From Zhaonella formicivorans (GTDB lineage Bacteria > Bacillota > DUOV01 > Zhaonellaceae): a DNA stretch of 64,000 nt. The translations under genes and the position numbers were made by a program. The notes beneath the pieces were generated by a model that was not told the origin of the DNA, ran no database searches, and worked only from the letters and a program-made list of their open reading frames with translations. The stretch covers positions 2,792,001-2,856,000 of the forward strand of contig NZ_CP085524.1 of assembly GCF_004353525.1 (NCBI RefSeq), given 5' to 3'. Positions 19,495 to 19,918 of this stretch are shown in pieces. Every line of letters starts with the position of its first letter. The stretch's first letter is position 1.

Positions 19495-19523
19495 TTGACT
19501 ATACCCTACGGGGGTAGTAAAAT
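19495..19523 (+). promoter_or_regulatory. Promoter with an embedded CsoR/CstR-type operator
   Basis: TTGACT (19495-19500) and TAAAAT (19518-19523) are separated by exactly 17 bases. The spacer ATACCCTACGGGGGTAG is a near match to the CsoR/CstR-family operator pattern (ATACCC-TACG-GGGGTAT, as upstream of copZA in B. subtilis). A repressor bound here would directly block RNA polymerase. The regulator gene itself is not in this window. Confidence 0.75.
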
Positions 19524-19567
19524 GGTTTATGATAGGTAACATTCACTTGGGAAAAGAGGTGAAAAGG

Positions 19568-19624
19568 ATGTTTACCAAGCACTGGATGTTGAGAGAAACT
19601 GCCCATTGCAAAGAGGGTTGCTGA
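19568..19624 (+). CDS. 18-residue Cys/His-containing peptide under CsoR-type operator
   Basis: ATG 19568 lies 8-9 bases after AGAGGTG and opens an 18-codon frame, MFTKHWMLRETAHCKEGC, ending TGA at 19622-19624. An in-frame GTG at 19559 would add three residues. The peptide has two His and two Cys (H5, H13, C14, C18), i.e. potential metal or persulfide ligands, consistent with the copper/sulfur-type operator 45 bases upstream. A strong palindrome follows at 19661. No larger gene is downstream in the same orientation, so the peptide appears to be the only product. Whether it is translated is untested. Confidence 0.45.
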   Translation: MFTKHWMLRETAHCKEGC

Positions 19625-19660
19625 ATTTGGTCCCGCGGCCGGACGGTAAATGGCCGTATC

Positions 19661-19693
19661 AGGAGGGGCTTCCTTTAATTGGAAGCCCCTCCT
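19661..19693. terminator. 13-bp perfect palindrome after the small peptide
   Basis: AGGAGGGGCTTCC / GGAAGCCCCTCCT with TTTAATT loop. There is no T-run on either side, so it may be an RNA 3'-end stabiliser or a terminator of unusual type rather than a classic one. Confidence 0.55.
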
Positions 19694-19880
19694 GCGTCGT
19701 CAGTCCTTACTCGTTGGTCGTTAGCGGTCACCAGTCACCATTTCCTAGTCCCTAGTCACCGGTGCTGTAGCCTGAAATTCAGCCACGTAACTGATGACTG
19801 GAGACTAGTGACTCGGCCAAAGGTCGTTGCCAGGGACTGGTGACTTTATGGTTGCCAAAACTAACGAGTAAGGACTGACG
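19694..19880. repeat. Inverted repeat element with CAGTCC/GGACTG arms
   Basis: The left end CGTCAGTCCTTACTCGTTGG is the reverse complement (one or two changes) of the right end ACTAACGAGTAAGGACTGACG. Internal units CACCAGTCACC, TAGTCACC, GACTGGAGACTAGTGACT and GGGACTGGTGACT continue the inverted symmetry. It is about 185 bases in total, the same class as the elements at 1.3, 7.6, 57.2 and 61.8 kb. Confidence 0.75.
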
Positions 19881-19882
19881 AT

Positions 19883-19918
19883 TCGACCTAAGTCCGTTAA
19901 TAAACAGACTTAGGTCGA
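19883..19918 (-). terminator. Hairpin at the end of the glutamate synthase-like gene
   Basis: The 12-bp perfect arms TCGACCTAAGTC/GACTTAGGTCGA overlap the last codons and stop (19897) of the minus-strand gene. No T-run follows. Confidence 0.55.

Follow-up and report, generated by a model that had tools for sequence, protein, structure and literature searches.

A tiny Cys/His peptide gene with a putative RNA pseudoknot behind a CsoR-like operator in Zhaonella formicivorans

By analogy, the described systems that appear closest in function to the locus presented here are two copper-linked small open reading frames, CruR and CutF. CruR (DUF2946) is a copper-responsive upstream ORF of Bordetella, with a CXXC and a RAPP arrest motif, that heads an operon and regulates it through Rho (PMC9426467). 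CutF of Rhodobacter capsulatus has a signal peptide for its export, and a stem-loop shields the cutO ribosome-binding site (PMC9973294). Our locus lies in a stretch of 64,000 nucleotides that was analysed as a whole (the window). It resembles CruR in being a small ORF with a metal-ligand motif and a copper link, in which translation would be central, but it codes for only 18 amino acids with an AHCxxG(C/H) motif, is followed by an RNA structure and has no downstream gene here. CXXC and RAPP are absent from its sequence, and DUF2946 was not among its matches, as the peptide has none in Pfam. The succession of a copper-linked small ORF and an mRNA stem-loop is shared with CutF, although peptides of the window type lack a signal peptide, and often no gene follows them. 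An operon-heading leader of either kind was not found in the window, where no + strand gene follows the micro-ORF.

Two other kinds of system invite comparison. MymT is a Cu(I)-binding metallothionein of ca. 53 aa with many Cys, whose regulator in M. tuberculosis is the CsoR paralogue RicR. The likeness is that of a small, CsoR-family-regulated thiol peptide, for which Cu(I) binding is predicted in our case, but peptides of the window type offer His together with two thiols, or with a single one, and their genes carry a conserved RNA element; with two Cys and no Pfam or NCBIfam family, the window peptide does not look like a Cys-rich bacterial metallothionein. Frameshift and readthrough stimulators, bacterial SECIS elements among them, have a structured RNA some 8 nt past a defined codon. 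Here, in contrast, the codon in question encodes Cys or His; neither a slippery site nor a conserved UGA is involved, and a conserved open frame beyond that codon is absent from the window-type unit; the combination typical of selenoproteins, a conserved in-frame UGA with coding sequence beyond, was not seen among the homologues. Selenocysteine or pyrrolysine readthrough was dropped, as the last Cys codon is followed by UGA, UAA or a variable sense codon and the frame is not kept. A -1 frameshift was also discarded: although many copies keep the -1 frame open, differences at the positions that vary alter the amino acid, which marks it as non-coding.

The promoter, TTGACT-17-TAAAAT (19495..19523, + strand), has 10 of 12 consensus matches in the promoter scan. 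A letter-by-letter check places the -35 box at 19495-19500 and the -10 box at 19518-19523, and confirms the claim of the sequence-only reading that an operator fills the 17-base spacer between them. This spacer, ATACCCTACGGGGGTAG (19501..19517, +), holds the palindrome TACCCTACGGGGGTA (19502-19516), with an exact TACCCN5GGGTA core, i.e., a CsoR-like operator. With up to 2 mismatches allowed, the whole 17-nt spacer has no second copy in the genome. Exact TACCCN5GGGTA sites number 7 in 3.3 Mb, and most of them lie at copper genes. Apart from the window operator, they include the copA promoter (CopA has two HMA domains), a position adjoining a second copper-ATPase-like gene, and the promoters of a SAM methyltransferase gene and of another copy of the micro-gene. 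At the methyltransferase site (G000:C1:143539; L233:1501-2176) the box stands 5' of a SAM-dependent methyltransferase gene of ArsM-like appearance, with a CLSCGT motif, and then a radical-SAM protein; this gene is a possible further CsoR target.

A single CsoR-family protein (PF02583) is encoded in the genome, and its sequence (...KYCVDVL...EHHSRGC...) has the pattern Y-C...H-x3-C, the Cu(I) C-H-C ligand set. CstR is not known to carry the His ligand of CsoR, so that copper is the better reading than persulfide, and control of the window operator by CsoR and copper would fit these ligands. Of the original proposal, a CsoR/CstR-type operator answering to copper or persulfide, the CsoR and copper halves are therefore retained, and a CstR/persulfide regulon is not supported because the sole family member keeps its His.

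A Shine-Dalgarno region with the spacer to the start codon (GAGGTGAAAAGG, 19555..19567, +) precedes the micro-ORF, MFTKHWMLRETAHCKEGC* (19568..19624, +), of 18 residues with a C-terminal Cys/His cluster. The pattern WMLR..(V/T)AHCxxG(C/H) is conserved, with synonymous codon changes in many genomes, and Cys and His are interchangeable as the final ligand among homologues. The window peptide is apparently one copy of an undescribed family of tiny bacterial genes, whose Cys/His-bearing products have 15-30 residues and whose RNA folds ca. 8 bases past the last Cys (or His) codon. In a blastn search of 60 relatives there were two matches, MFTKHWMLHETAHCKEGCLC (same family) and (GTG)-LRKRWMLRAVAHCKEGC (another family). 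Of the 398 genomes searched in the phylum, 33 contain a degenerate pattern for the peptide core and none its reversed control. Model matches were obtained in 62 of 398 genomes of this phylum (Bacillota), a figure that takes in weak matches at E near 0.01, some RNA-only or doubtful, and in 34 of the 198 genomes from the phylum to which a Geobacteraceae genome belongs (Desulfuromonadota-type). The public genomes contained at least 118 loci by a pattern scan; the first and second positions of AHCKxGC were imposed in it and so are not independent evidence, but the MLR stretch was left free. Among the matches listed are Moorella, Desulforamulus, Desulfofundulus, Thermincola, many Omnitrophota, Geobacteraceae, a Nitrospirae and an Actinobacteria MAG; the genome sets are samples, many of the named matches are metagenome assemblies, and L006, L049, L064, L068, L078, L130 and the weak matches L223, L225 and L227 were counted as chance or doubtful.

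The peptide is under codon-level selection. Across 95 non-redundant loci, the Arg codon of MLR is synonymous in 92.5% of differing pairs (65% when columns are shuffled) and the Leu codon in 72% (55%). Of 131 homologues, in a set filtered for Shine-Dalgarno-like motifs, 130 have a start codon preceded by one. The downstream Cys/His peptide postulated at first is real and widely conserved, and the outcome then feared, an operator kept without the peptide frame, was reversed, as it is the CsoR box that accompanies only some copies. No match was found in Pfam, NCBIfam or PHROGs, in viral contigs (0) or in plasmids, and the peptide strings were absent from the full-text literature covered, which leaves aside subscription papers and preprints. 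A resemblance to the PTP loop (HCx5R) was dropped since the R is not conserved.

Between the stop codon and an inverted repeat lies an RNA element that was overlooked in the first reading (19630..19656, +). Its sequence, GUCC-CG-CGGCC-G-GAC-GGUAAAU-GGCCG, could form a putative H-type pseudoknot, with GUC (19630-32) pairing with GAC (19642-44) as stem 1 (GUCC/GGAC in the window copy) and CGGCC (19636-40) with GGCCG (19652-56) as stem 2. The consensus 3' of the last Cys codon is GUCCYGGGCAWGACGNUAAACUGCCC. In 114 distinct copies all 5 pairs of stem 2 (GGGCA/UGCCC) have compensatory changes, in 20 cells against 4.2 in shuffled data, and slid controls fail. Stem 1 is complementary in 99.4% of cells and nearly invariant, which is why the pseudoknot stays putative rather than proven. 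The loop bases GUCC, GAC and UAAAC are as conserved as the peptide. A pattern for the pseudoknot only was found in 43 of 398 genomes (reversed control, 1), and the Rfam 15 covariance models gave only implausible sub-threshold miRNA-type matches, none of them credible. An attC-like resemblance (GTTRRRY) was set aside because base 2 varies.

The distance between the two parts is nearly fixed. In the window an 8-nt spacer, TGAATTTG (19622..19629, +), with the stop codon inside it, separates the last Cys codon from the RNA element. Among 43 homologues, which are covariance-model matches on which the exact gap was not imposed, the distance from the ligand codon is 8 nt in 38, 9 nt in 4 and 12 nt in 1. 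Seven relatives from the Geobacteraceae phylum (with peptides such as MWTERFRIRPVSHCKEGC) have strong hairpins of differing sequence instead of the pseudoknot, and all seven hairpins start exactly 8 nt after the last ligand codon. Since unrelated hairpins keep this spacing, an effect on the ribosome is favoured over a sequence-specific aptamer, at least in the hairpin class; it is also possible that one ancestral spacing has been kept by descent. Peptide and RNA are separable, because some loci have the RNA element alone (L217, in a copper operon; L224 and L226, at a peptidase/BON-domain locus) and others the peptide alone (L210, L214-216). A natural spacing variant occurs in two genomes (L196, L197), where the first part of the RNA element is duplicated in tandem (TTAAGGTCCTGGGC).

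The perfect inverted repeat that follows (19660..19694, no strand assigned; arms 19660-19673 and 19681-19694, 7-nt loop) is the palindrome noted at first sight, with 14 bp and not the 13 then given. It is a terminator-like hairpin without a U tract, for which the terminator scan makes no call, and it was dropped as a terminator. The sequence common to the window and its two nearest matches stops 5' of it, so that the repeat is outside the conserved unit and its supposed part in the device was not borne out. In the window and in several relatives the gene that follows lies on the opposite strand, and many copies, that of the window included, have no downstream gene to regulate. A terminator was found within 120 nt of 52 of the 83 Bacillota copies (12 of 83 when shuffled) and after all 7 of the hairpin relatives, a pattern that fits a complete small transcription unit. 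There are no tRNA or tmRNA genes in the window. The intergenic region at 19700-19890 is rich in repeated motifs like CCAGTCACC and ACTGGTGACT, on both strands, and similar repeats lie beside another copy of the micro-gene (L155).

The model finds three copies of the micro-gene in the genome. Apart from that of the window, L155 (MLRKHYLLRPVAHCEKGCSTKSWVRR) starts at TTG and is without a CsoR box; L156 (MLRKKYMLRAVAHCDSGH), which is divergent to copA, has such a box within its own -35/-10 spacer, and copA has a separate one. In Bacillota, a subclass of the peptides ends in GH (His-type). CsoR boxes were found upstream of 8 of 72 Bacillota copies (0.25 expected), with exact boxes at 6 (0.03 expected), so that of the operator-plus-peptide pair sought in relatives it is the peptide that is widespread. 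The exact boxes are at 5 of 12 His-type but only 1 of 60 Cys-type copies (non-redundant, p=0.0003), and most Cys-type copies have no box at all. HMA/CopA genes are within 1.5 kb of 19 of 83 Bacillota copies, compared with 0 of 23 random sites, and at least 14 of 18 His-type loci have HMA/CopA-type coding, another copper-type membrane protein or an exact box. As the fetched loci differ in length, the counts for His- and Cys-type copies are indicative. The His forms are strongly copper-linked. A membrane protein of ca. 157 aa with the sequence ACCLHHLGD and no Pfam match recurs around L217:2001-2034 and at L192 and L199, in copper operons, next to DUF2933/HMA proteins and the RNA element.

In other phyla the surroundings are different. 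Among the matches listed, 35 Omnitrophota loci have the element 5' of an Rrf2 regulator gene, behind which a ferredoxin, Hcp or superoxide reductase is often encoded, and in three Omnitrophota (L040, L075, L121) it comes after Hcp. A promoter palindrome, TGATACN6-8GTATCA, is present at 28 of 59 non-Bacillota copies and at none in Bacillota; it occurs upstream of element-Rrf2-ferredoxin-Hcp operons (e.g., Omnitrophota L037, L083, L139) and is likely the operator of an Fe-S Rrf2 regulator. In Desulfuromonadota-type genomes the element is near macAB, hemerythrin or rubrerythrin. Geobacter-type micro-ORFs, MW..R(F/Y)..RPV(S/T)(H/R)CKEGC, with hairpin and terminator, were seen just 5' of macAB-type efflux genes at L273, L300, L302, L304 and L306. 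MarR and TetR genes are also found beside relatives. Such varied neighbours and regulators indicate a unit wired to several metal and redox circuits, of which copper is the local wiring here and not a universal one.

We think there is an even chance that the window holds a stand-alone micro-mRNA, derepressed from CsoR, that codes for a peptide binding soft metals and carries an RNA structure by which the ribosome is affected as it finishes. Judging by the box, its context and the CsoR ligands, CsoR would repress from the -35/-10 operator and Cu(I) would release it, giving an mRNA of ca. 150 nt that codes for the 18-residue peptide. The C-terminal AHCxxG(C/H) would be a soft-metal ligand set, most likely for Cu(I), because of the conserved H and C, the interchangeable C/H ligand and the copper context. 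The peptide could then work in trans, as a copper buffer or carrier of minimal size, although three ligands in 18 residues make a weak buffer. The RNA structure, normally 8 nt past the codon of the last ligand (in a few copies 9 or 12), would meet the mRNA entry of the ribosome as this codon is decoded and most likely slow the ribosome at the end of the peptide, protect the tiny mRNA, or both. The metal-buffer and leader-peptide readings offered at the outset both stay in play, with a trans-acting product favoured because no gene is downstream in the window; with no + strand gene following, a cis leader is unlikely here.

There are several other explanations to weigh. One would be an arrest or leader peptide, in which metal bound to the nascent HCxxGC stalls the ribosome against the structure and the stall controls the fate of the RNA or a downstream gene. 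The near-fixed spacing to pseudoknot or plain hairpin, the ligand cluster close to the stop, the element heading Rrf2-ferredoxin-Hcp operons in the 35 Omnitrophota loci among the matches listed, and the precedents of CruR (PMC9426467) and CutF (PMC9973294) all speak for it. However, the opposite-strand gene next downstream, the terminators after most Bacillota copies, the position after Hcp in the three Omnitrophota and predicted folds of the hairpin class in which antiterminator pairing is not evident lead us to consider it unlikely. We regard as quite unlikely that the RNA is the effector, be it a small regulatory RNA or a protein-binding pseudoknot, with translation of the micro-ORF gating its folding. 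The conserved loop bases and the elements without peptide at the copper operon and the peptidase/BON-domain locus would suit this, but the peptide is itself selected at the codon level, and the unrelated hairpins that substitute for the pseudoknot in the macAB-type relatives make its sequence dispensable there. Just as tentative is a purely stand-alone arrest, in which Cu(I) on the nascent HCxxG(C/H) would halt the ribosome with the structure 8 nt ahead and the stalled micro-mRNA would itself be the output, in several phyla and with varied triggers. It is likewise quite unlikely that the peptide handles some other thiol stress (NO, persulfide or oxidant), copper control being one local wiring: the Rrf2, Hcp, superoxide reductase, hemerythrin, rubrerythrin and rhodanese neighbours in Omnitrophota and Desulfuromonadota-type genomes point that way, whereas the replacement of the final Cys by His is in keeping with metal and not thiol chemistry, the His forms are copper-linked, and the window operator and CsoR are of copper type. 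A chance ORF behind a chance operator, common as 18-codon ORFs are by chance, is next to inconceivable given the conservation over phyla, the covariation and the empty reversed control for the peptide pattern in 398 genomes.

Returning to the stand-alone micro-mRNA, a peptide of this kind behind a copper-sensor switch suggests a new copper-handling or copper-sensing device. A gene of ca. 18 codons conserved across phyla is easily overlooked by gene callers, and the combination of a micropeptide, a covarying RNA and a near-fixed distance between ribosome and structure is found in no Rfam or Pfam family or in the literature searched. If the stand-alone arrest were true, this would be a minimal metal-sensing arrest peptide. 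The micro-gene offers a small, testable unit for the handling or sensing of copper and related stresses during translation, and its culturable carriers include Moorella thermoacetica and Desulforamulus.
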